Below are positions 16,190 through 64,000 of a stretch of 64,000 bases of DNA, in pieces. This stretch comes from Enterocloster lavalensis (lineage in GTDB: Bacteria; Bacillota; Clostridia; Lachnospirales; Lachnospiraceae), in the NCBI RefSeq assembly GCF_902364025.1, contig NZ_CABJCG010000020.1, positions 55,977 through 119,976 of the forward strand, written 5' to 3'. A program made the position numbers and the translations under genes. Numbering within the stretch: the first letter of the stretch is position 1; each line of letters starts with the position of its first letter. The notes beneath the pieces are model-generated. The model saw only the letters and a list, made by a program, of their open reading frames with translations. It searched no databases and was not told the DNA's origin.

Positions 16190-17059
16190 TCACCAGTCTA
16201 CGACCCGGTTGAAAAGAATAGCCTGCTCCGTACTGGTCCGCCGCAGGTAAATGTGGGTGGTCTCTATGCTATCATGCCCAAGAAGGTCTGAGAGAAATGC
16301 AATATCGCCGCCGTTTTCGATAAAATTTTTGGCGAAGCGGTGGCGGAAGGAGTGGGGATACATGACTTCCGGGTCCAGGTGATACCGGATGGCAAAGGTT
16401 TTGAGCTGCTTGCGGATTCCGGAAACGGTCATGGGGCGGCCAAGGCGGCTGATAAAAAGAGGGCCGTCTCGCCGTCCCTCCGCCGCCAGCCAGTCCAGGC
16501 ACTTTTTTTGGAGGGAGGAGGGGATGTAAATCCGCCGGGTCTTATTTCCCTTGGAGTAGAGGTCCCGGTAACCCACCTGCACGTCCGTAAAAACCAGTGC
16601 CACCAGCTCGCTGACCCGCACACCGGTGGCGGCAATGAAGCGCACAATAAAATAGAAGGTGTACTGCTCATCCTCCCACAGCCTGTTTTTCAGATATTCA
16701 TAGTCCGCCTGGCTGATGACGTGGTCGATGAAAGATTTTTGCTGGAGGCGGACGGAGGGGATTTTGTAGTCGTGGATATCCTGTGATTTCAGAAAACAGT
16801 TCAGCGCCCGGATGCGCATGTTGACGGTCTGGGGACGGTAGCGCTCCATCAGGGAAACTTTGTAGAGGCTCACATTATTCTGGTCCAGCACGGGGTAGCG
16901 GGAGAAAAAGGCTTTTACGCCGTAGAGGTAGGCCGAGATGGTATTGTCCGACAGATTGTTTGCAGCCATATACCGTCGGAACGCGTCGAGCAGCGCAGTC
17001 AGATCCCCGGCTGGTAGGACAGGAGAGGACGGGAAATCACAAAAAGATGGCGTACCCAT
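16190..17059 (-). CDS. Tyrosine recombinase (type 1), beside repeat-protein copy A
   Basis: A 289-residue XerC/XerD-like recombinase. The N-terminal SAM-like core-binding domain begins near LTALLDAFRRYMAANNLSDN. The catalytic domain shows Arg in AATGVRVSELV, Lys in the SKGNKTRRIYIP hairpin, HSFRHRF and LGHDSIETTHIYL with the nucleophilic Tyr. It ends NRVVDW. It is most like the upstream members of the two recombinase pairs near 49-50 kb and 59-60 kb, but here no second-type partner follows. It lies just downstream of copy A on the same strand, separated by a terminator. The placement suggests it acts on the repeat-protein sites, possibly together with a type 2 partner from elsewhere. Confidence 0.93.
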   Translation of the reverse strand: MGTPSFCDFPSSPVLPAGDLTALLDAFRRYMAANNLSDNTISAYLYGVKAFFSRYPVLDQNNVSLYKVSLMERYRPQTVNMRIRALNCFLKSQDIHDYKIPSVRLQQKSFIDHVISQADYEYLKNRLWEDEQYTFYFIVRFIAATGVRVSELVALVFTDVQVGYRDLYSKGNKTRRIYIPSSLQKKCLDWLAAEGRRDGPLFISRLGRPMTVSGIRKQLKTFAIRYHLDPEVMYPHSFRHRFAKNFIENGGDIAFLSDLLGHDSIETTHIYLRRTSTEQAILFNRVVDW

Positions 17060-17200: not shown

Positions 17201-18913
17201 TTAGTCCTCGAGAACGATCTTGGTGATAGCATAGTTGCTGTCAACGGTGATCTTGTAGCCGTCGCCATCCTTAACGGTCTTGCCCTTGGCAACCGTACCG
17301 GAAGCGTTGATTACGCGGCAGTTTTTGGTCTTGTCGGTCTTGAATACCCAGGTGTCCTGATCTTTCTTGTATTCCTTGTCGTCTTTCTCCTGCAGCACTC
17401 CGCCGAACTCTTTGATGAACTGCTTGATATCAAAGCGGACTGTGCCGTCATCGGTATCGCCCAGTACCACATCGTCCTTAGTCAGAACAATGTCATACTT
17501 ATCTTCCTTATCCGCCTTGATCAGTTTACCGCCGACATAGTATTTCTTGTCGTCCAAGCCGGTGATGCCCACGCCCTTGTCGCTGCTGGTGGTCTTGAAC
17601 TTGAAGGTAGCGGTATCCCCATCCAGGGAAATAGTCTGCTTGCCGGTCTTCATTGCGCCGTCTTCAGAACTGCCGAAGTAGTAGAAGGCGTAGTTTCCCT
17701 TCTGCAAGTCGCCGCTGTCAGTGAGCTTGGCAACGGTTGTATTGAATTCGTCCTCATTCTCATAGGGGAATGTGGGGTCGTCACTGGCGATCTTCTCCGC
17801 AATCGCGGTATTGCTGCCATCCTCCATCCGCAGAAGAGCAAGTCCGCTGATCATGCGGCCATACTCGTCAAATGCATACTTTTTGCCTTTGTAACGCTCG
17901 ATGGTGTTGGTGTAAAGATTGCCGTCGGAATCTGCATAATACCAATACTCAGCATCTTCCTCGTATTTATCCTGATGCAGATAATAGCCAGGTACCACCT
18001 TGAACCAGTTCTTGGAATAACGGGCGCCGTCCTCGGGGCTGCTGTAGTACATAAAGGAACTGCTGTAGGTAGCGCTTCCCTGAGTGGAGATAATGGGGTT
18101 GCCGTCGCTGTCGGTTGCAGTATTTACTGCGGTGTGGCTCTTGTCAACCGGGCTTAAAGTCGTACTCCAGGAAGCGATCATACGGCCATATTTATCAAAG
18201 CCATATTTTCTGCCATTGATATTCTTTCCTTTGTGCTCGCCCTGCTTTTTGCCGGAGGCCTTAAAGTAGAAGTATCTGTCCTGCTCCTCATCCCAGAAAT
18301 CATCACCGGGCTGAGCGTCGTCGGCGTCCTCGTCGGTAATGGAGATCAGAGCAAAATTGTTTACAACCATTGCGCCGTCGTCCTCGCCGCCAAAATAATA
18401 ATCGCAGGTCTGCCAGGCGTCATCCTCGTCATCTCTCTCGAAGGAGGAGTTGACCCATCCAAACAGCATCTTACCGTCGGTATCAAAGGCATACTTTTTA
18501 CCATTAATGGTTTTAGCGGAAATGGTGGTTGCGGAATCGCTTCTCTTGTAAGCCTTACCATTGGACTGGAAATAGTACCAGTAATGATCCGGCTCATCTT
18601 CTTCGCCAGCGTCCTCGTTCTCAATGGCTACCCACTGATTGCGAACCATGGCGCCGTTGGCATCTACATAGTAATAGTCGTCGTCATCCTCGATCAGCAT
18701 ATCGGTTGCCATCTCGCCGCTGTCGTCCAGCCAGAACCAGTTATCGCCTGATTTCTTCCAGGAATCCGTCACCCGATCGCCATTCTTGTCATAATAAACC
18801 CAAGTCCCATCTTCCTCAGCCCAACCCTGAGCCGCAAAAGAGGTCATGGATGCACCAATGGCGAGCAGTGCTGCTGTGGATAATACAGCAACTAATTTTG
18901 TCTGCTTTCTCAT
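17201..18913 (-). CDS. Secreted cell-wall-binding repeat protein, copy A
   Basis: A 570-residue exported protein with a signal peptide (MRKQTKLVAVLSTAALLAIG, cleavage near SFAAQG). Tandem aromatic repeats of the cell-wall/choline-binding type follow, for example DGTWVYYDKNGD, INGKKYAFDTDGKMLFGW and KKYAFDEYGRMISGLALL. Between them are very acidic spacers (NEDAGEEDEPDHYW). The C-terminal 130 residues form a separate domain (FKTTSSDKGVGITGLDDKKY onwards) ending ITKIVLED. There is no LPXTG motif or enzymatic domain, so attachment is probably through the repeats. The first 224 bp from promoter to codon 46 are identical to copies C and D, although the rest is GC-richer and diverged. Its promoter lacks a good -35. 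The ribosome-binding site is AGGAGAG. Confidence 0.9.
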   Translation of the reverse strand: MRKQTKLVAVLSTAALLAIGASMTSFAAQGWAEEDGTWVYYDKNGDRVTDSWKKSGDNWFWLDDSGEMATDMLIEDDDDYYYVDANGAMVRNQWVAIENEDAGEEDEPDHYWYYFQSNGKAYKRSDSATTISAKTINGKKYAFDTDGKMLFGWVNSSFERDDEDDAWQTCDYYFGGEDDGAMVVNNFALISITDEDADDAQPGDDFWDEEQDRYFYFKASGKKQGEHKGKNINGRKYGFDKYGRMIASWSTTLSPVDKSHTAVNTATDSDGNPIISTQGSATYSSSFMYYSSPEDGARYSKNWFKVVPGYYLHQDKYEEDAEYWYYADSDGNLYTNTIERYKGKKYAFDEYGRMISGLALLRMEDGSNTAIAEKIASDDPTFPYENEDEFNTTVAKLTDSGDLQKGNYAFYYFGSSEDGAMKTGKQTISLDGDTATFKFKTTSSDKGVGITGLDDKKYYVGGKLIKADKEDKYDIVLTKDDVVLGDTDDGTVRFDIKQFIKEFGGVLQEKDDKEYKKDQDTWVFKTDKTKNCRVINASGTVAKGKTVKDGDGYKITVDSNYAITKIVLED

Positions 18914-19000
18914 AATTAATGCACTCTCCTTTTTCTTTTTGAAATACTTTTTGAAATTCCTAATTGCATTACGAGTTGATTATACTTCCAATAAGGGAAA
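18777..19000 (-). repeat. 224-bp identical head shared by copies A, C and D
   Basis: Base-for-base identical to 54227-54450 (plus) and 57916-58139 (minus). It covers the promoter -10, leader, signal peptide and first repeat. Identity ends abruptly at TTTCCC on the upstream side. Confidence 0.92.
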
Positions 19001-39100: not shown

Positions 39101-39594
39101 CCTGTACCATCACAGTGAACCACAGAGACAGCTCAGATTCCGATGATGACGGGGACTGGACCACGGCAGCCGGCCCGGGCGTTGCGGACACCGTCCGCGG
39201 AAGCTGGGAACCGGCCAATGGACAGTGGCGTTTCCAGAAGGAAGATGGAAGCTATGCCGCCTCCTCCTGGGAGCGGATCGGAGGCGTGTGGTATTATTTC
39301 AGAGAAGATACCTATGCGGCCTCCGGCTGGTTCCGGCAGGGAGATTTCTGGTATTACTTGAGCCGGGAGGCGGAAACTTTTGGCGGAATGCAGACCGGAT
39401 GGCTGTATGACCCGTCCTATGAGCGATGGTTTTATCTGGAAGAAAGCGGAACCATGGCGGTGGGGTGGAGGCAGATCGATGGAAAATGGTATTATTTTCA
39501 TGCGGTATCCGACGGTGAAATGGGCAAGATGTATGCAGGAGAACGGACTCCGGACGGATATATGGTAGGAACAGATGGCGAGTGGAGCCATTGA
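36154..39594 (+). CDS. Giant secreted papain-like (C1A) protease, catalytic halves in permuted order, with cell-wall-binding repeats
   Basis: 1146 residues. In order: signal peptide (to about residue 45); a PPC-like beta domain (55-170); the His half of a clostridial C1 protease (HYLAHWQGPVDESVV near 215-230, GGHATLIVGWDD with His about 327, WICKDSYEG near 370); a lectin-like domain (to about 570); a linker of about seven 12-residue repeats (REIQRATASEAD type, 585-680); then the Cys half (KNQGNSNLCWAFSAAAALE, Cys about 780); a bacterial Ig-like domain (about 925-1005); and C-terminal aromatic cell-wall-binding repeats (WYYFREDTYAASGWF, GKWYYFHAVSDG). Normally the Cys half comes first. The usual active-site Asn is Asp here (KDSYEG). 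The product is presumably an exported wall-attached protease or an inactive derivative. Confidence 0.82.
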   Translation: MYMRDRLKRIRTKSRIWTARFLIVALVSFSAETLGPIQAWASQASPENHGDGFPAEYFSGQGEIWEKLETNGEVMVAFPSQIEADISSPDDEDRYSFQLEEESDLTLSLESEYPCAMELMCQGQVIGVSDRPYSQILEPNGLEAGTYTVRVIPREHVDTSTYTLRISRQSDRKKQPDYSEAHIAGTLFDPKSPFRAINIRNEEDKNRGGSSVMAIHYLAHWQGPVDESVVPYYDKGDFSENPSDYIQYKKAKPDFHVQNAVILPGYRESGEHMEHWKNAIMTYGAVDTGFFTSYNFWDKNEGPGYPEWDFEYFYVPKDWNYEKYGGHATLIVGWDDTVEREKFRITERGEDGSIIRETMPERDGAWICKDSYEGLTPDYFYVSYESQDFGGLEFTPTAFAPPEKNDNYNHLYSNSPGGMTDAAANSEGFLRGVQTFQNEGGSELLRAVGFAANQSELSYEIRVRIGDGPLDRVKSGYLKYPGFYTVRLDQGIVIPPGTAFEIHVALSGDNDKRISFYTCKNVKGWIDGVKEIPGKSYYYTDWEGETEWMDASAEGEYPCIYAYTYSLGKQDITILDNKEAAGEIGKATTSEAAREIQRATASEADQEIQRATASEADREIQRATASEADREIQRATASEANREIQQPAASQTDRNTDRAAASNAEPDIERATPSQAVLRYDTASGSNAAKVEENAEDEENEWEDVVLFDDSEEAAAEAEAERVKEQNFRRIREAESGAIPNDNPNEFEVNPLNLDFPAKYDSRDYHLITKAKNQGNSNLCWAFSAAAALETAYLRYGNQMIDYPRGLNLVSREAPIVDGTISLKLRKGEEIPLNLSAALFSDSESFNPGSPQIYWEISGDLGSVEGGPKLSESGQTFCALKALGPGRVTVTAVSMADVSLRVSCQVEILEMLTARVRIEPETMTMEVGETGNLNTTVEADEELTVIYSSDRPDVVSVDKNGRVMALKPGTAVITAKAGEGKAACTITVNHRDSSDSDDDGDWTTAAGPGVADTVRGSWEPANGQWRFQKEDGSYAASSWERIGGVWYYFREDTYAASGWFRQGDFWYYLSREAETFGGMQTGWLYDPSYERWFYLEESGTMAVGWRQIDGKWYYFHAVSDGEMGKMYAGERTPDGYMVGTDGEWSH
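37905..38190 (+). repeat. 36-bp tandem repeat inside the protease gene
   Basis: Encodes 12-residue units of the type REIQRATASEAD. The central four are nearly identical at the DNA level and the outer ones degenerate. It separates the two halves of the protease domain. Confidence 0.88.
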
Positions 39595-48417: not shown

Positions 48418-49275
48418 TCACCACGTAACAATCTCATCAATCATCGCCCGCTGCTCTTTCGAGGACCGCGTCAAATAAATCCGTGTAGTCTCAATGCTGT
48501 CATGCCCCATCAGATCTGCCAGCAGCGCAATATCGTTAAATCTGGACAAAAAATTCTTTGCGAACCGATGCCGGAACGAGTGGGGGTAGACGGTATCCGG
48601 GTCGATCCGGTAACGCCTGGCCAACACTTTCAACTGCCAGCTGATCCCGCGGGCTGTAAACGGAGCGCCGTTTCGGTTGGTAAACACAAAACCGGTCTGA
48701 AGCCCTCTGGTCTCCAGCCAGTCCAGCGCGTCCCGGCACAGCGTTTCCGGAAAATAAACCCGGCGGACCTTTCCGCCCTTTGAGTACAGGTCCATATACC
48801 CCATGCGGATATGTTCCGCCTTGATCTGGAGCAGCTCGCTGATCCGCGCGCCCGTGCTCCCCAGAAAATGAACCACAAAATACCAGAATACGTCATGGTC
48901 CTCCCTAAGCCCCTTTTTAAGGCGCTCGTAATCCCGCTGGGAGATCACGTTGTCCAGAAAAGGCCTGTGCTGCAACTTGACGGCTGCCAGCCGGTAGCCG
49001 GCCGGTATTTCAGCGCCCTCCGATTCCAGAAGCTTCAGGTATTGATTCATTCCGTAAATGCGTGAATTGGCCGTGGAGGGCTTGTAATGGCTGATCAGGT
49101 AATTCCGGTAATCGTTCAGCGATTCCAGGCTCAGATTGCCGTACAGGGACTCGTAGAGCCACAGCGAACGGGCGTAGGTATTAATGGTATTTGCGGAGGC
49201 TCCGCGCTGCCTGAGCCGTTCTTTAAAATACTCCAGGCGCTGCTCTGCCTCCTCGTTCAGATCACAGTATTCCAT
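48418..49275 (-). CDS. Tyrosine recombinase, type 2, of pair 1
   Basis: A 285-residue XerC/D-like recombinase. The core-binding domain begins YFKERLRQRGASANTINTYA. The catalytic domain has GSTGARISELLQI (Arg), LYSKGGKVRRVYFP (Lys), YPHSFRHRF and LMGHDSIETTRIYLTRSS with the Tyr nucleophile. It ends DEIVTW, the mark of the second member of each pair here. It follows the type 1 gene with a 10-bp gap. It is clearly paralogous to the recombinase at 58652-59497 but GC-richer. Confidence 0.94.
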   Translation of the reverse strand: MEYCDLNEEAEQRLEYFKERLRQRGASANTINTYARSLWLYESLYGNLSLESLNDYRNYLISHYKPSTANSRIYGMNQYLKLLESEGAEIPAGYRLAAVKLQHRPFLDNVISQRDYERLKKGLREDHDVFWYFVVHFLGSTGARISELLQIKAEHIRMGYMDLYSKGGKVRRVYFPETLCRDALDWLETRGLQTGFVFTNRNGAPFTARGISWQLKVLARRYRIDPDTVYPHSFRHRFAKNFLSRFNDIALLADLMGHDSIETTRIYLTRSSKEQRAMIDEIVTW

Positions 49276-49285
49276 GTACTCACCC

Positions 49286-50122
49286 CTACCAATTTACAAC
49301 CTGATTGACAATCCGGGCCTGCTCCGTGCTGCTGCGCCTTAGATAAATCCGAGTGGTCTCCAAGCTCTCATGTCCCAGAAGATCAGACAGCAGCGTGATA
49401 TCCCCGGAATTTTCGATAAAATTTTTGGCAAAGCGGTGGCGGAAGGAATGGGGGTACATAACCTCGGGATCCAGACAATACCGGGCGGCGAAATCCTTCA
49501 GCCGCGAGCGCACCCCGGTGACGGACAGAGCGGAACCATAGCGGTTCAGAAAGAGAGGGCCTGTGGCGCGGTGTTCCAGTTCAAGCCAGTCCAGGATCGC
49601 GCATTTTAAGCGGGTTGGAACATAAACCCGGCGCATCTTATTCCCCTTGGAATAGACATCCTTGTGTCCGAGCTTTATATCCTCGATGCGGAATGTGACC
49701 AGCTCGCTGACCCGCACCCCGGTGGCCGCGGTCAGCCACACCAGGTAGAAGTAGCTGTATTCCTCATCCTCCCAAAGCCTGCGCTTCAAATACTCATAGT
49801 CGGCATGGGTTATAATCTTGTCCAGATAGGTCTTTTGCTGTACCTTCACCATGGAGAGAGGACAAATATCGGATTTGCAATACTCAAGATAGGAATTGAG
49901 CGCCCGGATCCGCAGGTTGACCGTTTGCGGTTTATAGTGCTCGATCAAATAAACTTTGTAAAGCTGCAGATTGCGGTAGGTCAGTCGGGAATAGCGGTGC
50001 AGATACTGTTCCACGGTAAAATGGTAAATGTGAATGGTGTTGGGGGCCAGATTATGGGACGACAGATAGGTGTCAAACCCCCGTCTGACCACGGCAGCGG
50101 CAGCTGTTTGGATTGCCGGCAT
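49286..50122 (-). CDS. Tyrosine recombinase, type 1, of pair 1
   Basis: A 278-residue recombinase with AATGVRVSELVTF (Arg), YSKGNKMRRVYVP (Lys), YPHSFRHRF and LLGHESLETTRIYLRRSS (Tyr), ending VNQVVNW. It belongs with the genes at 16190 and 59507 (type 1). The ribosome-binding site is AAGGAGGT. Type 1 and type 2 proteins differ in sequence throughout, which suggests a mixed tetramer like XerC-XerD. It lies directly downstream of repeat-protein copy B. Confidence 0.94.
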   Translation of the reverse strand: MPAIQTAAAAVVRRGFDTYLSSHNLAPNTIHIYHFTVEQYLHRYSRLTYRNLQLYKVYLIEHYKPQTVNLRIRALNSYLEYCKSDICPLSMVKVQQKTYLDKIITHADYEYLKRRLWEDEEYSYFYLVWLTAATGVRVSELVTFRIEDIKLGHKDVYSKGNKMRRVYVPTRLKCAILDWLELEHRATGPLFLNRYGSALSVTGVRSRLKDFAARYCLDPEVMYPHSFRHRFAKNFIENSGDITLLSDLLGHESLETTRIYLRRSSTEQARIVNQVVNW

Positions 50123-52257: not shown

Positions 52258-52312
52258 GAAATTCCTAATTGCATTACGAGTTGATTATACTTCCGATACG
52301 GGAAATTATAGA
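52258..52312 (-). promoter_or_regulatory. Promoter half-site / putative crossover site of copy B, variant centre
   Basis: Minus strand: TCTATA as -35 candidate, spacer with TTTCC-CGTATC-GGAAG, TATAAT, then GCAATTAGGAATTTC. The central six bases differ from copies A, C and D. Confidence 0.6.
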
Positions 52313-54219: not shown

Positions 54220-54248
54220 TTGATAATTTCCCTTATTGGAAGTATAAT
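54220..54248 (+). promoter_or_regulatory. Complete promoter of copy C with crossover dyad in its spacer
   Basis: TTGATA, exactly 17 bp, TATAAT, with an A-rich UP-element-like tract just upstream. The spacer contains the dyad TTTCC-CTTATT-GGAAG (54227-54242). Sequence downstream of 54227 is shared with A and D; the -35 and everything upstream is unique to this locus. Confidence 0.8.
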
Positions 54249-54450
54249 CAACTCGTAATGCAATTAGGAATTTCAAAAAGTATTTCAAAAAGAAAAAGGA
54301 GAGTGCATTAATTATGAGAAAGCAGACAAAATTAGTTGCTGTATTATCCACAGCAGCACTGCTCGCCATTGGTGCATCCATGACCTCTTTTGCGGCTCAG
54401 GGTTGGGCTGAGGAAGATGGGACTTGGGTTTATTATGACAAGAATGGCGA
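54227..54450 (+). repeat. 224-bp identical head, copy C
   Basis: Identical to the heads of copies A (18777-19000) and D (57916-58139). C and D remain identical for about 11 bp more. Confidence 0.92.
54260..54274. repeat. 5' arm of the inverted repeat bracketing copy C
   Basis: GCAATTAGGAATTTC in the 5' leader; the matching arm is at 56078-56092. Confidence 0.7.
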
Positions 54451-56062
54451 CAAGGTTACCGAGGCTTGGAAAAAGTCTGGGGACAACTGGTATTGGTTAG
54501 ATGACAACGGCGAGATGGCCACTGATATGCTGGTCGAGGATGATGACAACTTTTACTATGTAGATGCCAACGGCGTTATGGTTCGTAATCAGTGGGTAGC
54601 TATTGAGAACGAGGATGCCGGTGAAGAAGATGAGCCGGATAATTACTGGTACTATTTCCAGGCTAATGGTAAGGCTTATAAGAGATCTGACAATGCTAGC
54701 TCCAATGCTATCAACGCTAAAGTTATCAATGGTAAAAAGTATGCATTTGATACCGATGGCCGTATGTTGTATGGCTGGGTAGTAGATGGCGAGCGCCAGA
54801 CTGATGATGATGCCTGGAAGGATGCAGATGCATATTACTTCGGCGATGAGAACGATGGTGCTATGTCCATCGGCTGGAGACTGATTTCTATTACAGATGA
54901 TGACGCCGAGAGCGCAGAGCCTGGTGATGAGTACTGGGATGAGGATCAGGATCGTTGGTTCTGGTTCAAATCTTCTGGTAAGAAGCAGGTTTCCAAAGAT
55001 AACAAAACCATTAATGGCAAAAAGTATGGCTTTGATGAATATGGTCGTATGATCGCTTCCTGGTATGCTGCTGATGTTACAGCTACAACCAGTACTGCAA
55101 AAACTCCTCTGGCAACCGATGCAAAGGTTCAGGGCGTTTCTGCCTACTCTGAAGGCTTTATGTATTTCAGCGATCCTGAAAGCGGCGCTCGTTATACCAA
55201 GGGTTGGTTTAAGGTAATTCCTGGTTACTATTTACATGAGTCCAAATATAATGACGGTGATGAGTACTGGTATTATGCAGATGGCGATGGCAACATCTAC
55301 TCTAACGTGATCAAAACAATTAAAGGCAAAAAATATGCATTTGATCAGTATGGCCGCATGATTAGTGGACTGGTATTCCTGGAGATGGGTAGCGAGGATA
55401 CTTCTTCCGAAATCGCTATGAAGTATGCTGATGATGCCGGAACTTATAACAAAGCTAATAAAGACGATTATAAGGCTAACGGCAATACCGGAGCTTATGA
55501 TACGGAAGATAACTTTGATCAGTTTGTAATCGATCATCAGGATGAGATTGCCTCTGGTAAGGTTAGAAGCTATTACTTCGGCAGCTCTGATGATGGCGCT
55601 ATGAAGACCGGAAAACAGAACGTAACGATCGATGGCGATTCCTTCACTTTCAAGTTCAAGACTGGCTCTAACCTGAAGGGTGCTGGTATCAATGGCTTTG
55701 ATGATGACAAACTGTATACTGCAGGTAAGCAGATCAAGGCTGATAAGGATGATAAGTACAAAGTTTATAAGGTAACCACCGGTACCGGAAACTACTGCCT
55801 GGTTGAGGATATGACTGTTAGCGCCTTCTTGAAGGAAGCGGCTGTTGATCCCGACGGCAAGTATGACGAGAAGAAGGAAGAAAGAGTTTGGACAATTAAA
55901 AATTACTCCAACAAGAAGGATGAGGATGGTAATAGTGTAAAATATTACTTACTGAATACTTCTGGCTCAGTTATTAAGAACAAGACCGGTGCTAAGGATG
56001 CAGATGATTACAAGTTCAATGTAAAGAGCAAAGAAATCACCGAGGTTATCCTTGAGGACTAA
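54314..56062 (+). CDS. Secreted cell-wall-binding repeat protein, copy C (probably the expressed copy)
   Basis: 582 residues. Signal peptide as in copy A, then aromatic repeats (DGTWVYYDKNGD, INGKKYAFDTDGRMLYGW, NGKKYGFDEYGRMIASW, KKYAFDQYGRMISGLVFL) separated by acidic stretches (NEDAGEEDEPDNYW). The C-terminal domain (GSNLKGAGINGFDDDKLYTA) ends KEITEVILED. Codon use is AT-rich, unlike copies A and B. It is the only copy with a near-consensus -35, so it is the one I expect to be transcribed in this orientation. It is convergent with copy D and separated from it by two related terminators. Confidence 0.92.
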   Translation: MRKQTKLVAVLSTAALLAIGASMTSFAAQGWAEEDGTWVYYDKNGDKVTEAWKKSGDNWYWLDDNGEMATDMLVEDDDNFYYVDANGVMVRNQWVAIENEDAGEEDEPDNYWYYFQANGKAYKRSDNASSNAINAKVINGKKYAFDTDGRMLYGWVVDGERQTDDDAWKDADAYYFGDENDGAMSIGWRLISITDDDAESAEPGDEYWDEDQDRWFWFKSSGKKQVSKDNKTINGKKYGFDEYGRMIASWYAADVTATTSTAKTPLATDAKVQGVSAYSEGFMYFSDPESGARYTKGWFKVIPGYYLHESKYNDGDEYWYYADGDGNIYSNVIKTIKGKKYAFDQYGRMISGLVFLEMGSEDTSSEIAMKYADDAGTYNKANKDDYKANGNTGAYDTEDNFDQFVIDHQDEIASGKVRSYYFGSSDDGAMKTGKQNVTIDGDSFTFKFKTGSNLKGAGINGFDDDKLYTAGKQIKADKDDKYKVYKVTTGTGNYCLVEDMTVSAFLKEAAVDPDGKYDEKKEERVWTIKNYSNKKDEDGNSVKYYLLNTSGSVIKNKTGAKDADDYKFNVKSKEITEVILED

Positions 56063-56077
56063 TCCTTAGTAAGAGAA

Positions 56078-56092
56078 GAAAATTCCAATTGC
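56078..56092. repeat. 3' arm of the inverted repeat bracketing copy C
   Basis: GAAAATTCCAATTGC, inverted relative to the 5' arm at 54260-54274. Confidence 0.65.
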
Positions 56093-56100
56093 TAAAATGA

Positions 56101-56157
56101 GGAGCTGTTGCTCAAGTAGATAAATATGCTACTTGAGCAACAGCTCCATTTATTTCT
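56101..56157 (+). terminator. Terminator of copy C
   Basis: A perfect 19-bp stem, GGAGCTGTTGCTCAAGTAG against its complement, then ATTTATTTCTTT. Confidence 0.92.
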
Positions 56158-56240
56158 TTGAAAAGTAGTGGTCTTTTGACAATAATCTATAAAATCGTTA
56201 ACAATAGCTTGATACCCACACCCCACATAGTTTTCTGCAT

Positions 56241-56294
56241 AAAAATGGAGCTGCTGCTCCAGTAGAGATTGTTCATCTACTATTGCAACAGCCC
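56241..56294 (-). terminator. Terminator of copy D, homologous to that of copy C
   Basis: GAGCTGCTGCTCCAGTAGA pairs with TCTACTATTGCAACAGC; on the minus strand it is followed by TTTTT. Its arms resemble those of copy C's terminator in inverted orientation. Confidence 0.85.
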
Positions 56295-56304
56295 ATTATA
56301 ACAA

Positions 56305-56318
56305 GCAATTAGTATTTC
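56305..56318. repeat. 3' arm of the inverted repeat bracketing copy D
   Basis: GCAATTAGTATTTC, inverted relative to GAAATTCCTAATTGC at 58092-58106. Confidence 0.65.
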
Positions 56319-56336
56319 AACGTATGACGATTTAGA

Positions 56337-58052
56337 TTAGTCCTCCAGCGTAATGGACTGAATAACGCCATCTTTGTTTACTTTAATCTTGTAGTCATCG
56401 CCATTCTTTACAGACTTTCCATTGCCCTCCACAATCTTACCAGATGTGTTTACCACACGATAAACATCCATGCCCTTAGCCTTGGAAAGATCCCAGAATG
56501 TAGCATCCTTAATGGATTCACGATCACTATCAGTTTTGCCAAGAAGTTCACTGATTTTTACATCATCATCAACTACAACCCAAGCATTTTCTTTAACGCC
56601 ATCAGCATCGGCGTATTTGGTGAACTTAACAATCTGATATTTATCATCCTTGTCAGCTTTGACTAATTTGCCACCGACATAGAACTTATCATCGTCAACA
56701 CCGGTAAGGCCAGCCCCTTTGATGTTGCTCTTGGTTGCGAACTTGAAAGCAAAGGTTTCGCCATCGATATCGATGTTCTGTCTGCCAGTCTTCATTGAAC
56801 CGTCATCAGCCCCGCCGAAGTACATAAAGCGGAAAGTACCGTTGGCTAGATCTTCAGCAAGATCTCCCATCGCAGTTTCATTAAATGCATCCTCGGTATC
56901 ATAGGAATACTGTTTATCATCATCGGCATACTTAACAATCTCTGTACCATCACTGTCACTGCTATCTGTATACTTAAGGAGTGCCAAACCAGAAATCATT
57001 CTACCATACTCATCAAACGCATATGTTTTGCCCTTGATTTTCTTTACTCTATTCGCAATGATATTGCCATCACCGTTTGCATAGTACCAATAATCCGCAT
57101 CATCTTCATATTTGGACTCATGCAGATAATAACCAGGAACTACTTTGAACCATCCCTTAGAGTAGCGAGCGCCATCCTCAGGATTGCTAAAATACATAAA
57201 GGAATGTGAATAGTCCGGATTGCCCTGGCTATCAGATGCTACAGTTGTGATGGAACCACTTGCCTTCTGAAGGTCTTCACTGTACCAGGAAGCTACCATA
57301 CGGCCATATTTATCAAATCCATATTTCTTTCCGTTGATCTTCTTATCAGTGAAAACTTTGTCTCCATCAGCATATTTCTTTTTACCAGAGGACTGGAAGA
57401 AGAACCAACGATCCTGATCTTCATCCCAGAACTCATCACCAGGCTGAATTTCATCAGCTTCTTCATCAGAAGTGATAGAAATTAATTCCCATGTATTAAC
57501 CCTCATGGCACCATCATCTTCGCCACCAAAGTAATACAGACCCTCCTGCCATTCAGTATCTTCATCGGTCACACGCTCAAAAGAATCATTTACCCAACCA
57601 TACAGCATCTTGCCATCAGTATCAAATGCATACTTTTTGCCGTTAATTGTTTTCGCAGAAATGGTAGAAGACGTATCACTTCTTCTGTAAGCCTTACCAT
57701 TGGCCTGGAAATAATACCAGTAATGATCAGGCTCTCCATCTTCACCTGCATCCTCATTCTCAACAGCTACCCACTGGTTAGTTACCATGGTGCCATTCTC
57801 ATTTACATAGTAATAGTTGTCATCATCCTCAACCAGCATATCAACGGCCATTTCACCGTTCTCATCTAACCAATACCAGCTGTCCCCAGATTTCTTCCAG
57901 GAATCGGTAACCTTGTCGCCATTCTTGTCATAATAAACCCAAGTCCCATCTTCCTCAGCCCAACCCTGAGCCGCAAAAGAGGTCATGGATGCACCAATGG
58001 CGAGCAGTGCTGCTGTGGATAATACAGCAACTAATTTTGTCTGCTTTCTCAT
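56337..58052 (-). CDS. Secreted cell-wall-binding repeat protein, copy D
   Basis: 571 residues with the shared signal peptide, then repeats (DKNGDKVTDSWKKSGDSW, INGKKYAFDTDGKMLYGW, NGKKYGFDKYGRMVASW, KTYAFDEYGRMISGLALL). The C-terminal domain (KSNIKGAGLTGVDDDKFYVG) ends GVIQSITLED. AT-rich. Head identical to A and C. The candidate -35 (TCAATA) is poor. Because it faces copy C, inversion between the two promoter dyads would put this gene behind copy C's -35 and silence C. Confidence 0.92.
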   Translation of the reverse strand: MRKQTKLVAVLSTAALLAIGASMTSFAAQGWAEEDGTWVYYDKNGDKVTDSWKKSGDSWYWLDENGEMAVDMLVEDDDNYYYVNENGTMVTNQWVAVENEDAGEDGEPDHYWYYFQANGKAYRRSDTSSTISAKTINGKKYAFDTDGKMLYGWVNDSFERVTDEDTEWQEGLYYFGGEDDGAMRVNTWELISITSDEEADEIQPGDEFWDEDQDRWFFFQSSGKKKYADGDKVFTDKKINGKKYGFDKYGRMVASWYSEDLQKASGSITTVASDSQGNPDYSHSFMYFSNPEDGARYSKGWFKVVPGYYLHESKYEDDADYWYYANGDGNIIANRVKKIKGKTYAFDEYGRMISGLALLKYTDSSDSDGTEIVKYADDDKQYSYDTEDAFNETAMGDLAEDLANGTFRFMYFGGADDGSMKTGRQNIDIDGETFAFKFATKSNIKGAGLTGVDDDKFYVGGKLVKADKDDKYQIVKFTKYADADGVKENAWVVVDDDVKISELLGKTDSDRESIKDATFWDLSKAKGMDVYRVVNTSGKIVEGNGKSVKNGDDYKIKVNKDGVIQSITLED

Positions 58053-58139
58053 AATTAATGCACTCTCCTTTTTCTTTTTGAAATACTTTTTGAAATTCCT
58101 AATTGCATTACGAGTTGATTATACTTCCAATAAGGGAAA
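57916..58139 (-). repeat. 224-bp identical head, copy D
   Basis: Identical to copies A and C and in inverted orientation to C, 3.9 kb away. Confidence 0.92.
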
Positions 58140-58146
58140 TTATTGA
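58118..58146 (-). promoter_or_regulatory. Promoter half-site / putative crossover site of copy D
   Basis: Minus strand: TCAATA, 17-bp spacer with TTTCC-CTTATT-GGAAG, TATAAT. The flank just beyond (58138-58157) is shared, inverted, with the flank of copy E. Confidence 0.65.
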
Positions 58147-58651: not shown

Positions 58652-59497
58652 TTACCAAGTAACGATTTTATCAATAAATTTTCGCTGCTCTAGCGATGAT
58701 TTAGTAAGATATATTCTCGTAGTCTCAATACTCTCATGTCCCATCAAATCGGCCAAAAGTGAAATGTCATTAAATTTGTTTAAGAAGTTTTTTGCAAATC
58801 GATGGCGAAAGGAATGAGGGTACACGGTTTCTGGAGGAATGTGATAACGAACCGCCAGAACCTTCAGTTGACTGCTGATTCCTCGGGGAGTAATCTGATC
58901 GCCTTTCTTGTTCACAAAGATAAATCCACTGTCGCGGCCTTCGATAGCCAACCAGGAGAGCATTTCCAGACATAATTTTTCAGGAAAATAAATTCTTCGG
59001 AGTTTTCCGCCTTTTGAATATAAATCCATGCAGCCAATACGAACGTGCTCTACTTTAATTTTCACCAATTCGCTGATTCTTGCTCCGGTAGCAGCCAGAA
59101 ACCTTACCACAAAGTACCAAAACATATTTCCATCACGTTTTAGACACCGTTTCAGTCGTTCGTAATCTCTTTTTGAAATGATATTATCTAAAAATGGCTT
59201 CTGTTGGCGTTTAACGGAAGGGAGCTTGTAGCTTTCCAGCTTCATTTCCGGATTGTCGCCAAGAGTTTCGATATATTGATTAATGCCGAATATTCGTATA
59301 TTAACAGTATTTGCTTTAAAATGCTCTAAAAGGTACTCTTTATATGATTGAAGATTGGGAATATTGACATCAGAATACAGTGAAAAGTAAAGCCGCACAG
59401 AAGCTGAATATGCGCTGATTGTATTGGGGGCCGCCCCACGTTTCCTTAAGTATTCCTTAAACGTCTCAATTTCTTTTTGTTGAAATTCGATCATCAT
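58652..59497 (-). CDS. Tyrosine recombinase, type 2, of pair 2
   Basis: A 281-residue recombinase: FLAATGARISELVKI (Arg), YSKGGKLRRIYFPEKL (Lys), YPHSFRHRF, and LMGHESIETTRIYLTKSS with the Tyr nucleophile, ending DKIVTW. AT-rich codon use matching copies C-F. It follows its type 1 partner with a 9-bp gap and is the counterpart of 48418-49275. Confidence 0.94.
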   Translation of the reverse strand: MMIEFQQKEIETFKEYLRKRGAAPNTISAYSASVRLYFSLYSDVNIPNLQSYKEYLLEHFKANTVNIRIFGINQYIETLGDNPEMKLESYKLPSVKRQQKPFLDNIISKRDYERLKRCLKRDGNMFWYFVVRFLAATGARISELVKIKVEHVRIGCMDLYSKGGKLRRIYFPEKLCLEMLSWLAIEGRDSGFIFVNKKGDQITPRGISSQLKVLAVRYHIPPETVYPHSFRHRFAKNFLNKFNDISLLADLMGHESIETTRIYLTKSSLEQRKFIDKIVTW

Positions 59498-59506
59498 ATT
59501 TTCTCC

Positions 59507-60361
59507 TCACCAGTCAACAATTTTATTTACAATCCGGTACTGTTCGCTACTGCTTCTACGAAGGTAAATTCTGGTGGTTTCTATGCTTTCGTGTCCCAGA
59601 AGATCCGATAACAGCGCGATATCCCCACTATTCTCTATAAAGTTTTTTGCAAATCTATGGCGGAATGAATGAGGGTAAACTACTTCCGGATCAAGATTAT
59701 AACGCAACGCAAACGCTTTCAACTGCCCTCGGATTCCTGAAGCTGTAATTGGGTTGCCAAAACGGTTTAGAAATAGAGCCCCTTTCTTTCTCCCATTTTT
59801 ATCGAGCCATACCTCAGTTTTTTGTTTGAGAATGGTAGGAATATAAATACGCCTCATTTTATTTCCCTTGGAGTAAAGATCTTTAAATCCAGACTTTACA
59901 TCTACAACTTCAAATTTGACAAGTTCGCTTATTCTGACACCGGTGGCCGCCATATAACGAATGACAAAATAGTACGAAAACTCGCCGTCTTCCCATAGCC
60001 GGCGTTTTAGATACTCGTAATCCGCCTGACTGATAATGCGGTCCAAGTACATTTTTTGTTGTATTTTAATCATGGTCATTTTGGAGTCTTTATGGTTTAG
60101 ATACTCCATGTAACAATTAAGAGCTCGTATTCGCAGATTGACCGTCTGTGGTTTATAGTGCTCCAACAGATAAACTTTGTAGAGCTGCAGTGTAGCAATC
60201 GTAAGCTCTTTATGAATCTCAAAAAATTGCCTGACTGCATAACAATACACACAGATCGTATTTGCCGACATATTCTTACTTGTTAAATAATCTCGGAACC
60301 CTTCTTGATATAAATCTGTATCTCTACTATCAAGCGAATCCGCCTCTTTTAAAACTGCCAT
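59507..60361 (-). CDS. Tyrosine recombinase, type 1, of pair 2
   Basis: A 284-residue recombinase: MAATGVRISELVKF (Arg), YSKGNKMRRIYIP (Lys), YPHSFRHRF, and LLGHESIETTRIYLRRSS (Tyr), ending VNKIVDW. The core-binding domain contains YLTSKNMSANTICVYCYAV. An AAAAGGAGGAG ribosome-binding site precedes the ATG. The pair lies between divergent copies D and E, whose upstream flanks form inverted repeats around it. Confidence 0.94.
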   Translation of the reverse strand: MAVLKEADSLDSRDTDLYQEGFRDYLTSKNMSANTICVYCYAVRQFFEIHKELTIATLQLYKVYLLEHYKPQTVNLRIRALNCYMEYLNHKDSKMTMIKIQQKMYLDRIISQADYEYLKRRLWEDGEFSYYFVIRYMAATGVRISELVKFEVVDVKSGFKDLYSKGNKMRRIYIPTILKQKTEVWLDKNGRKKGALFLNRFGNPITASGIRGQLKAFALRYNLDPEVVYPHSFRHRFAKNFIENSGDIALLSDLLGHESIETTRIYLRRSSSEQYRIVNKIVDW

Positions 60362-60512
60362 TTCAATCTCCTCCTTTTGATCAACATCATATAGTATATT
60401 AACCTATATATTCGCAAAAAGTAATATATTTTGATAAAATTTTAGATTCAAAAAGAAGATATCTTTCATAAAGTGTCCAAAATGGCATGGGAAACGAAAA
60501 AATTACTATGTT

Positions 60513-60553
60513 TTTACCAGCTTTCAATAATTATCCTTATTTGGAAGTATAAT
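60513..60553 (+). promoter_or_regulatory. Degenerate promoter/crossover site of copy E
   Basis: TTTACCAGCTTTCAATAATT matches the flank of copy D in inverted orientation for 20 bp. A damaged dyad (TATCCTTATTTGGAAG) and TATAAT follow. An extra base lengthens the spacer. Confidence 0.6.
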
Positions 60554-60618
60554 TAACTTGTAATGTAGTTAGAAATTTTAAAAAGTATTTCAAAATGAAA
60601 AAGGCGAGTGGATTAAGT

Positions 60619-62243
60619 ATGAGAAAGCAGACAAAATAGTTGCTGCATTATGCACAGCAATACTGTTCGCCGTTGGTGTATCCATAGCCTTTTTGTAGCT
60701 CAGAGCTGGGCTGAGGAAGATGGGACTTGGATTTATTATGACAAGGTTTCCGAGTCCTGGAAGAAGTCTGGGGACAACTGGTATTGGTTAGACGACAACG
60801 GCGCTATGGTTCGTAATCAGTGGGTAGCCATTGAGAACGAGGAGGCCGGCGAGGATGACGAGCCCGAACACTATTGGTACTATTTCCAGGCCAATGGTAA
60901 CGCATACAAGAGAAGTGACAGCGCAAGCACTGATGTTATTTCTGCAAAGGTAATCAATGGCAAAAAGTATGCTTTTGATACTGAAGGCAAAATGCTGTAT
61001 GGTTGGGTAAGCGACGGCGAGCGTCAGGCTGATGATGACGCTTGGAAGACATGCAAATACTACTTTGGTGACGAAGATGATGGCGCAATGTCTGTTGGCT
61101 GGAGATTGATCAGCATTACCGATGACGAAGCAGAAGATATTCAGCCCGGCGATGAGTTCTGGGATGAGGATCAGGATCGTTGGTTCTACTTCCAGTCCTC
61201 TGGTAAGAAGAAAGCAGCTGATGAGAACAATGGCGAAGTATATACTGATAAGTCGATCAATGGTAAAAAGTATGGCTTTGATTAGTATGGCTGTATGGTA
61301 CTTCTTGGTATGCAGATCTGAAGACTGCCAGCTTATCTGAGAGCAAGACTGATAAAGGTAGCGCTAGCCAGGGAACCAAAAAGTATGCTGAAGAGTTCAT
61401 GTATTTCAGCAGTCCCGAAGATGGAGCTCGTTATACCAAAGGCTGGTTCAAAGTGGTTCCTGGATATTATCTGCATCAGGCAAAATATAACGACGGCGAT
61501 GAGTGTTGGTACTACGCTGACGGTGATGGAAATATCGTGGCAAATGAGATCAAGACGATCAAAGGCAAGAAATATGCATTTGATGAGTATGGCCGCATGA
61601 TCAATGGTCTGGTGTTCTTAGAAATGGTGAATGGCGATACTGCAACTGACATTGCTCAGAAATTAGCAAATGATGACGATGATCGTCCCTATGATACGGA
61701 GGATAACTTCGATAATTTTGTAAACCACTATCACGATCAAATCAATAAGCATCAGATCAGAAGTTACTATTTTGGTAGTTCCGATGATGGCGCTATGAAG
61801 ACTGGTAAGCAGACTGTCGACATTGATGGCGATAGCTTTACACTCCCGTTCAAGAAGGGCAGAAATTTGAAGGGCTCCGGTTTAATCGGTGTTGATTGAT
61901 GATAAGTTATATATAGCCGGTAAATAGGTTAAGGCTGACAAGGATGACAAATATACTATCTACGGTTATAATAAGGCAGAGAACACCGTAACAGAGTATT
62001 CTGCTGCTGAGTTCATTAGCAAAAAGGTGAGCAATGTAAAAGTTGAAGGTGGTAAGGCTGAGGTCCTAATGATGATGGTGATCAGAAGTGGACCTTTAAT
62101 GATGCCAACGGTAATGGGGTTACTTATTATGTAATCGGAACCAGCGGCATTATTGTTAAGACAAAATCTAGCGCTAAGGATGCTGATGATTACAAGATCA
62201 ATGTAGGTAAGAAGGTTATCAAGTCTATTACATTAGAGAACTA
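60619..62243 (+). pseudogene. Degenerate repeat-protein copy E
   Basis: Aligns along its length with copies C and D but is broken. A one-base deletion after codon 6 (ACAAAATAG instead of ACAAAATTAG) ends the signal peptide. About one repeat is missing near 60800 (the part equivalent to MATDMLVEDDDNYYYV). There is a stop at 61285 where others read GFDEYG, an insertion near 61895, and another stop at 61927. The remaining frames still show DGTWIYYDK, INGKKYAFDTEGKMLYGW and KKYAFDEYGRMINGLVFL. The 3' end (ITLEN) and inverted-repeat arm are kept. It could still donate sequence by recombination. Confidence 0.9.
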
Positions 62244-62261
62244 ATTGTTCTAAGTAAATAG

Positions 62262-62471: not shown

Positions 62472-64000
62472 CTATTTCTCCAGGGTAATGTAGTCAAGTA
62501 CGCCATCCTTGAAGTAGAACTTATAATCATCGCCATTCTTAGCACCGTTCTTGGTAGAGATGGTTCCAGTGGAATTAATCATAATTACACTCTTTTTCTT
62601 ATAATTATCATTAATTGTGTACTTATAGTTTTTATCCTTATCCTCAGAGACTTCATCTTTAATTAAATCCTTAACAGAAACTTCTTCATAGGAATAAGAT
62701 CCGTCATTGTTAAGCTCAAAGTTGGCAATCATATACTTGTCATCTTTGTCTGCTTTGATTAACTTACCACCAATGTAGAGCTTCTTGTCGTCGATTTCAG
62801 TAAAGCCCTGACCCTTCTTAGTGCTGCTGGTCTTGAACTTGAAGGTGATGGACTCTCCATCAAGAGAAACAGTCTGCTTACCAGTCTTCATTGCACCGTC
62901 ATCGGAACTGCCGAAGTAGTAAATAGCTTCGTTAGTGGCAAGGCTTCCACCGTTATCAGAAATACCAACATAGTCATCGAACTCATCTTCGTCATCGAAG
63001 TCATCGCTGCTCAGAATAGTCTTTCCGTCATTATCTAAAGTAATAACTCTTAAGCCATCAAGCATACGTCCAAAGCCATCAAATGCATACTTTTTGCCTT
63101 TGATTTTCTCGATAGTATTAGCATAGATGTTTCCATCACCATCCGCATAATACCATTTCTCAGCATCCTCATCATATTTCTCGGCATCCAGATAATATCC
63201 CGGAACTACTCTGAACCAGCCCTTGGTGTAACGAGCACCATCTTCAGGGGTGCTGAAGTACATAAACTGCTCAGAATATGCTTTTGTTCCCTGAGATCCG
63301 CTGGCCTTATCAGTTTCAGATAAAGAGGCCTCATCAACATCAGCATACCAAGAAGCTACCATGCGGCCATACTCATCAAAACCGTATCTCTTACCATTGA
63401 TTTTCTTATTGGTCTTATCTGTCTGCTTCTCACCAGAAGACTTAAACCAGAACCAACGATCCTGATCCTCATCCCAGTACTGATCGCCAGGCTGATCTGT
63501 ATCAGCAGCATCTTCGTCAAGGATATTGATTAAAGCCCAACCGATCTTCATTGCGCCGTCATCTTCGTCACCGAAGTAATATTCGCACTCTTTCCAAGCG
63601 TCATCATCAGTGCTTCTGTCACCAGTCTCTTTATCTACCCAGCCATACAGCATCTTACCATCGGTATCAAATGCATATTTCTTTCCATTGATAACCTTTT
63701 TGGATAAAGTATTGGAGGATTCAGACTTCTTGTAAGCTTTACCGTTAGCCTGGAAATAATACCAGTAATGATCCGGCTCACCGTCTTCTCCAGCATCTTC
63801 GTTTTCAATAGCTACCCACTGGTTGGTTACCATGGCGCCATTCTCATTTACATAATAGTAGTTGTCGTCATCCTCAACCAGCATATCAACAGCCATCTCG
63901 CCGTTGTCATCTAACCAATACCAGTTGTCCCCGGATTTCTTCCAGGACTCGGTAACCTTGTCGCCATTCTTGTCATAATAAACCCAAGTCCCATCTTCCT
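62472..64000 (-). CDS. Secreted cell-wall-binding repeat protein, copy F (N-terminus outside window)
   Basis: The frame is open to the right edge; the visible part is about 509 residues and lacks only the signal peptide. Repeats are as in C and D (EDGTWVYYDKNGDKVTESW, NGKKYAFDTDGKMLYGW, NGKRYGFDEYGRMVASW, KKYAFDGFGRMLDGLRVI). The C-terminal domain (SSTKKGQGFTEIDDKKLYIG) ends LDYITLEK. AT-rich. The last 40 bases at the edge are identical to the head of A, C and D, so the conserved head continues outside. It converges with pseudogene E, repeating the C/D arrangement. Confidence 0.9.
   Translation of the reverse strand, partial: EDGTWVYYDKNGDKVTESWKKSGDNWYWLDDNGEMAVDMLVEDDDNYYYVNENGAMVTNQWVAIENEDAGEDGEPDHYWYYFQANGKAYKKSESSNTLSKKVINGKKYAFDTDGKMLYGWVDKETGDRSTDDDAWKECEYYFGDEDDGAMKIGWALINILDEDAADTDQPGDQYWDEDQDRWFWFKSSGEKQTDKTNKKINGKRYGFDEYGRMVASWYADVDEASLSETDKASGSQGTKAYSEQFMYFSTPEDGARYTKGWFRVVPGYYLDAEKYDEDAEKWYYADGDGNIYANTIEKIKGKKYAFDGFGRMLDGLRVITLDNDGKTILSSDDFDDEDEFDDYVGISDNGGSLATNEAIYYFGSSDDGAMKTGKQTVSLDGESITFKFKTSSTKKGQGFTEIDDKKLYIGGKLIKADKDDKYMIANFELNNDGSYSYEEVSVKDLIKDEVSEDKDKNYKYTINDNYKKKSVIMINSTGTISTKNGAKNGDDYKFYFKDGVLDYITLEK

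Follow-up and report, generated by a model that had tools for sequence, protein, structure and literature searches.

A putative recombinase-driven expression switch for surface proteins in Enterocloster, with a candidate crossover inside the promoter spacer

Site-specific inversion links silent surface genes to a unique promoter in the vpma system of Mycoplasma agalactiae (Xer1) and the vsp system of M. bovis (Mbr), as set out in the sections of PMC2268961 that deal with these loci. A comparable family of surface-protein genes is found in a 64,000-nucleotide stretch of the genome of Enterocloster lavalensis, a member of the Lachnospiraceae (contig NZ_CABJCG010000020.1; the whole stretch is called the window below), where a putative recombination site lies within the promoter of one gene copy. 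The points of likeness to vpma and vsp are the single promoter, the inversion logic and a tyrosine recombinase near the locus (PMC2268961, same sections), and at the sequence level one promoter accompanied by promoterless copies, inverted sites and varied bodies were found. According to those sections, however, the vpma and vsp sites are located in 5' untranslated regions (UTRs), whereas the site described here is located between the -35 and the -10 element; furthermore, the silent copies keep their -10 here, and copies can be tens of kb apart. The vsa locus of M. pulmonis is similar in that an inversion sets one 5' end before different 3' parts, but in the account given in PMC2268961 its promoter, ribosome site and first 714 nt are fixed, whereas only the upstream half-promoter is fixed here. 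The logic of such a switch is known from vpma and vsp; its new part would be that the crossover falls within the promoter and not in the 5' UTR.

In Campylobacter fetus, the sap surface genes have conserved 5' ends and are connected to one promoter by inversion, a process which depends on RecA. As general background, sap resembles the proposed switch in the inversion to one promoter and differs in its unrelated proteins and its RecA dependence. A whole promoter flips in fimS and in the invertible promoters of Bacteroides. These resemble the proposed switch in that the presence of a promoter before a gene depends on inversion, but there the whole promoter lies between two inverted repeats, whereas the crossover proposed here would split it. 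Fimbrial switches with a whole-promoter flip are also covered in the consulted sections of PMC5903667, which also deal with the RecV switches of Clostridioides difficile (cwpV, flagellar), where short stretches of DNA invert and thereby switch the genes next to them. The RecV switches and the present locus have in common that they occur in Clostridia, are accompanied by a tyrosine recombinase and have a surface gene among the proven or putative targets; however, these sections mention no store of silent bodies (PMC5903667). A search of the open-access literature, which makes no claim about absence from print, brought up nothing recognised as resembling this system beyond the comparison papers PMC2268961 and PMC5903667.

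Judged from its sequence, the locus is quite likely a recombinase-driven expression switch for surface proteins, in which one promoter serves many bodies and the crossover takes place within the promoter spacer. In the proposed mechanism, the flank of one copy, C, would stay at one chromosomal position and provide the upstream half-promoter, consisting of an A-rich tract plus the -35 TTG, and the gene copies would bring the downstream half (spacer, -10, 5' UTR and signal peptide). A tyrosine recombinase would act at the promoter-spanning site with a crossover in the 17-bp spacer, and recombination between two inverted sites would flip the intervening DNA, thereby joining a formerly silent body to the good -35 and leaving its former partner with a flank that lacks it. 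Since the single good -35 would be handed over, expression of just one body at any time is predicted. That a tyrosine recombinase is the enzyme, that strands cross over in the spacer, that the switch can be reversed in a clonal population and that the TTGATA copy alone is transcribed are likewise predictions of this model.

A putative recombination site inside the promoter spacer

The surface-protein family comprises six copies in the window (B0, A, C, D, E and F). Genomes used for comparison carry working numbers; G001 is the nearest one compared and has 25% of the window's sampled words in common. The sites and copies are the following (positions of the window):

54220..54248, plus strand: complete promoter, the sole one of the family in the window, with TTGATA at 54220-54225, a 17-bp spacer and TATAAT at 54243-54248
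54227..54242, plus strand: putative recombination site of C within the promoter spacer, TTTCCCTTATTGGAAG
58124..58139, minus strand: site of D, the same 16-mer inverted, by sequence match
58141..58146, minus strand: -35 place of D, with the sequence TCAATA
18985..19000, minus strand: site of B0, the same 16-mer, with CTCATA in the -35 place
52290..52305, minus strand: variant site of A, with the spacer CGTATC and TCTATA in the -35 place
54314..56062, plus strand: copy C, 582 aa, with a signal peptide-like start and choline-binding repeats
56337..58052, minus strand: copy D, 571 aa, convergent with C
17201..18913, minus strand: copy B0, 570 aa
50539..52218, minus strand: copy A, 559 aa, flank and body stay together in G001
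60531..62244, plus strand: copy E, frame broken, site degenerate
62472..64000, minus strand: copy F, runs off the end of the window, its site lies outside it

In A, B0, C and D, a dyad is located inside a 17-bp spacer, which is followed by TATAAT. The sites bound the gene bodies, and each of them sits inside a promoter. In C and D, whose sites are 3.9 kb apart, the dyad reads TTTCC-CTTATT-GGAAG and lies between the -35 (TTGATA in C only) and a -10 common to both; its arms TTTCC/GGAAG are imperfect, the exact part being TTCC/GGAA alone. The original prediction had read TTGATA-N17-TATAAT in C, TCAATA in the -35 place of D and the dyad between -35 and -10, all of which agrees with the sequence. 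It had further placed the end of the C/D identity exactly at the dyad. The dyad does lie at the upstream edge of the head, but four further bases (ATAA) upstream of TTTCC are common to C and D, and the identity therefore stops 4 bp beyond the dyad, inside the -35 hexamer. Likewise, the two copies do carry an identical head in inverted orientation, but counted from the site it is 236 bp long, and the 224 bp given at first is the length shared by C and B0. The coordinates given at first covered C and D; B0, A (variant site at 52305), E and F had been omitted.

When the 16-mer was searched with up to three mismatches, four matches were obtained in the window versus 0.56 expected from shuffled sequences. 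The promoter of C is the best sigma-70-type match between 50000 and 61500 (11 of 12 positions); the 26 promoter-like matches in this region are not above shuffles (mean 22.8, standard deviation 4.6). Choline-binding repeats score above the gathering threshold of 27 bits in C (59.2 bits) and D (55.9 bits), and choline binding is a putative function. The signal-peptide stretch is 100% identical among C, D and B0 and 88% in A. Copy A, whose spacer is CGTATC versus CTTATT, has a drifted head; its flank and its body are 99% identical each in G001, and both points speak for the switch. Altered sites, drifted heads and broken frames are combined in copy E and in the G001 copies at 5515001 and 5516591; a short frame (283 aa) also occurs in one G238 copy with an intact site.

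A single TTGATA site in most site-bearing genomes and different bodies behind the same flank

A query consisting of flank plus head matched in some part in 16 of 17 Enterocloster genomes. Together with the window, 33 sites were tabulated (five of them in the window), ten of which have TTGATA; these ten all have homologous flanks and belong to the window and to nine Enterocloster genomes, with a single one apiece. G008 has an N at the -35 place, and the flank was seen without a full head in G010 and G015. Scanning of the Lachnospiraceae with a pattern that allowed other -35 triplets revealed 38 sites in 17 of 397 genomes, representing 14 genera, and a reversed-pattern control gave 0 matches in the same scan. 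Two of the 14 genera were searched in further species, which resulted in a total of 24 site-bearing genomes; the list was compiled by hand from the family scan and the two genus searches, and the genus of G165 is represented by G165 alone. Exactly one TTGATA site is present in 22 of the 24 genomes, none in two and two in none, and 16 of the 22 also carry other, TTG-less sites. As the pattern starts from TTGATA, silent sites can be missed (one each in G063 and G377), but a second TTGATA with the rest intact cannot. The exact head pattern had no match in a set of viral contigs, leaving a phage origin unsupported.

The 25 expression sites, which were picked by TTGATA, have five invariant A at -32 to -28, TA at -25/-24 and ATTT at -17 to -14, whereas 29 silent flanks mainly keep T at -25 (0.90), C at -26 (0.62) and ATA at -20 to -18 (0.79, 0.90 and 1.00). 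For this comparison, one site with an N was omitted and 35 silent flanks were collapsed to 29, any two of which agree at fewer than 22 of 37 upstream bases; some of the 29 are still homologous by BLAST. By this comparison, the TTG falls in otherwise unconserved positions of the apparent left half-site. It seems fairly probable that in at least 14 Lachnospiraceae genera the recombination site is at the same time the core promoter, with the TTG in the left and the -10 in the right half-site, and that an exchange in the spacer would hand over the -35.

Orientation and spacers were compared by eye. Of 27 further sites that share a contig with a TTGATA site, 23 have the opposite orientation to it (p 3.1e-4); among the four direct ones, the sites are altered in copy E of the window and G001 5515001, and intact in G063 and G238. 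Further searches revealed an inverted site in G419, a direct one in G421 and, 2.1 Mb away, one of each in G414. The next downstream copy is convergent in eleven cases (the window, G001, G003, G008, G011, G063, G148, G165, G238, G244 and G419). Several draft contigs end at or just inside heads (G010, G006, G017, G036, G285, G299), which is what repeats or mixed arrangements would cause.

Different bodies were found behind the same promoter flank, namely between species. The sister species G063 and G377 have four copies each, one of which is joined to the expression flank, and these flanks correspond to each other (86.8% over 302 bp). The expressed body of G063, however, is 93% identical (456 aa) to a body at a silent locus of G377 versus 49% to the expressed one, and for the expressed body of G377 the identity with a silent body of G063 amounts to 76%, again versus 49% between the two expressed bodies. 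The gene alignments start at the site, and the body is the informative part since the heads are common to all copies; in G377, contig ends after the genes hold repeats, which makes a comparison of the 3' flanks weakly informative there. G238 and G419 are reciprocal as well, with 76% and 75% identity to each other's silent copies versus 58% between the expressed ones. For the body of copy C, identity reaches 82% with a silent copy of G001 versus 73% with the body that stands behind the corresponding flank in G001; this flank is 99% identical over 150 bp and 91% over 499 bp. According to the original prediction, other bodies can be connected at the dyad to the flank that carries the one good -35, and between species this holds for all three comparisons. 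The sequences support an exchange that would have occurred at or very near the dyad.

Across all ordered pairs, a silent copy was favoured in 13 of 20 in the genus of G238 and G419 and in 38 of 64, many by a few percent, in the genus of the window; taking the best of several silent copies biases the result towards silent ones, a point that counts against the switch, and only large differences therefore carry weight. Loci too short for a body were left out of the pair counts (both of G416, G420, the expression site of G421, one of G238 and three of G285). The comparison of Enterocloster bodies excluded copies below 250 aa but kept the truncated G001 5515001 (294 aa), whose identities rest on a short stretch and inflate several cases in which the silent copy was the better match.

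Tyrosine recombinases and other features of the window

Five tyrosine recombinases with the Phage_integrase domain PF00589 are encoded in the window:

58652..59497, minus strand: tyrosine recombinase, PF00589, second gene of a pair
59507..60361, minus strand: tyrosine recombinase, PF00589, first gene of this pair and query for relatives
48418..49275, minus strand: tyrosine recombinase, PF00589, second gene of the other pair
49286..50122, minus strand: tyrosine recombinase, PF00589, first gene of the other pair
16190..17059, minus strand: lone tyrosine recombinase, PF00589, adjoining B0

Two pairs had been recognised before (48418-50122 and 58652-60361) and are both present; the single gene at 16190-17059 is additional. 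The catalytic motif R-K-HxxR-H-Y is visible by eye in all five proteins, which fall into two types: 59507, 49286 and 16190 (54-61% identity within the type) and 58652 and 48418 (60%), with 44-51% across. Their nearest solved structures are XerC-like, XerA and XerD. All five score far below the curated cut-offs for housekeeping XerC and XerD (e.g., 100.9 versus 335 bits). Relatives at E <= 1e-55 were found in 14 of 16 site-positive versus 1 of 32 site-negative genomes (Fisher p 3.5e-9), the latter being hand-picked and not random. In Enterocloster, 15 of 17 genomes have a close recombinase; it is missing in G007, in which no site was found, and in G016, which has one site. A recombinase would be the natural agent of the exchange, and the enzymes encoded here are the candidates. 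Copies D and E flank the pair at 58652-60482 in the window; in G001 (5507355-5509185) the pair has the opposite orientation and is located downstream of gene bodies. G128, a genome without a site match, encodes a recombinase (C8:29150-29944) that is 55% identical to 59507-60361; this genome may carry a diverged version of the system.

Two short motifs are found in the UTRs of copy C, and other copies are alike in this respect. The 5' UTR contains GCAATTAGGAATTTC at 54260-54274, and GAAAATTCCAATTGC follows right after the stop codon at 56078-56092 in the 3' UTR and is nearly the reverse complement of the 5' motif. Among 50 copies, the 5' form was detected in 33 and the 3' form in 25, versus 4 for the reversed and 13 for the same-strand control; the near-palindromic nature of the motif explains part of the latter count. 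One possibility is that the two ends of the mRNA pair over a long range via these motifs, and the complementarity may also mark a second boundary. At 36154-39594, the window encodes a protein of 1146 aa that combines papain-like, lectin-like, Big_2 and choline-binding domains.

The proposed switch and its alternatives

A number of observations weigh against a simple inversion switch. Only a TTG-less site was seen in the drafts of G006, G013, G014 and G016, no TTG site is present in G065 or in G420 (81% completeness), and in 7 of 24 genomes with TTGATA and another site no silent copy among those found has the same 16-mer, as judged by eye. Related bodies are kept at the expression site in G002, G011, G004 and G005 (78-95%), and G418 and G419 show no exchange. 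A close recombinase is absent from G188, G378 and G016, each of which has a site; beyond Enterocloster, the gene is often unpaired and non-adjacent, e.g., 58 kb away in G063. A further departure comes from B0 (site 19000), both flanks of which are conserved in G001; its body shows only about 53-56% identity, which looks like a replacement of the gene from the 5' site to the 3' end. This refutes the idea that bodies always move with their 3' flank, and a net inversion of the C-B0 segment, which was looked for in G001, was not seen. Inversion at one site cannot account for B0, and it is therefore probable that gene conversion or a second point of exchange is at work as well. The inversion of about 3.9 kb between C and D that had originally been proposed is therefore kept in a modified form: C and D are one of several possible partner pairs, and inversion would not be the sole process.

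Gene conversion and RecA-dependent homologous recombination between identical heads could also be the whole explanation, with the dyad as the limit of homology and the recombinases as bystanders. The heads are indeed nearly identical within a genome, identity declines with distance from the head, the changed B0 body between conserved flanks fits gene conversion, and the sites at hand are mismatched in the 7 of 24 genomes mentioned above. We nevertheless regard this as unlikely as the main process, since it is opposed by the co-occurrence of recombinase and site (14/16 versus 1/32) and by the uniform position within the site at which many different silent flanks join the common head; the drifted heads of the copies with altered sites point in the same direction, though loss of homology alone could have this effect. 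Gene conversion probably contributes in addition to the switch.

Alternatively, the exchange could be real but slow, with the recombinase reshuffling bodies over evolution and each strain keeping one expressed body, i.e., without phase variation. This would be in line with the related bodies at the expression site of G002, G011, G004 and G005, with the fact that all evidence for exchange is between species and with the large inversions between relatives that were not seen. The inverted and often convergent arrangement (23/27) and the intact recombinase motifs suggest present activity instead, as do the draft contigs that often end at or inside heads, although repeats alone cause such ends; slow exchange without switching is therefore considered unlikely. 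Operators are usually located between -35 and -10, and the dyad could thus be bound by a regulator, with separately regulated copies and -35 differences that reflect decay. This leaves the single TTG per genome, the exchange of bodies and the co-occurrence of recombinases unexplained; an operator alone is highly improbable and was rejected as the main explanation.

If the recombinase-driven switch exists as proposed, recombinase and RNA polymerase would be competitors for a single stretch of 30 bp, thereby tying switching to transcription, and a crossover inside the promoter spacer would make exclusive expression automatic. Common gut commensals would then possess a surface switch with one promoter and many genes, which is recognisable in sequence by one rule, the single TTGATA among the sites of a genome, and the surface diversity that these bacteria present to phages, antibodies and neighbours would become measurable from long reads.

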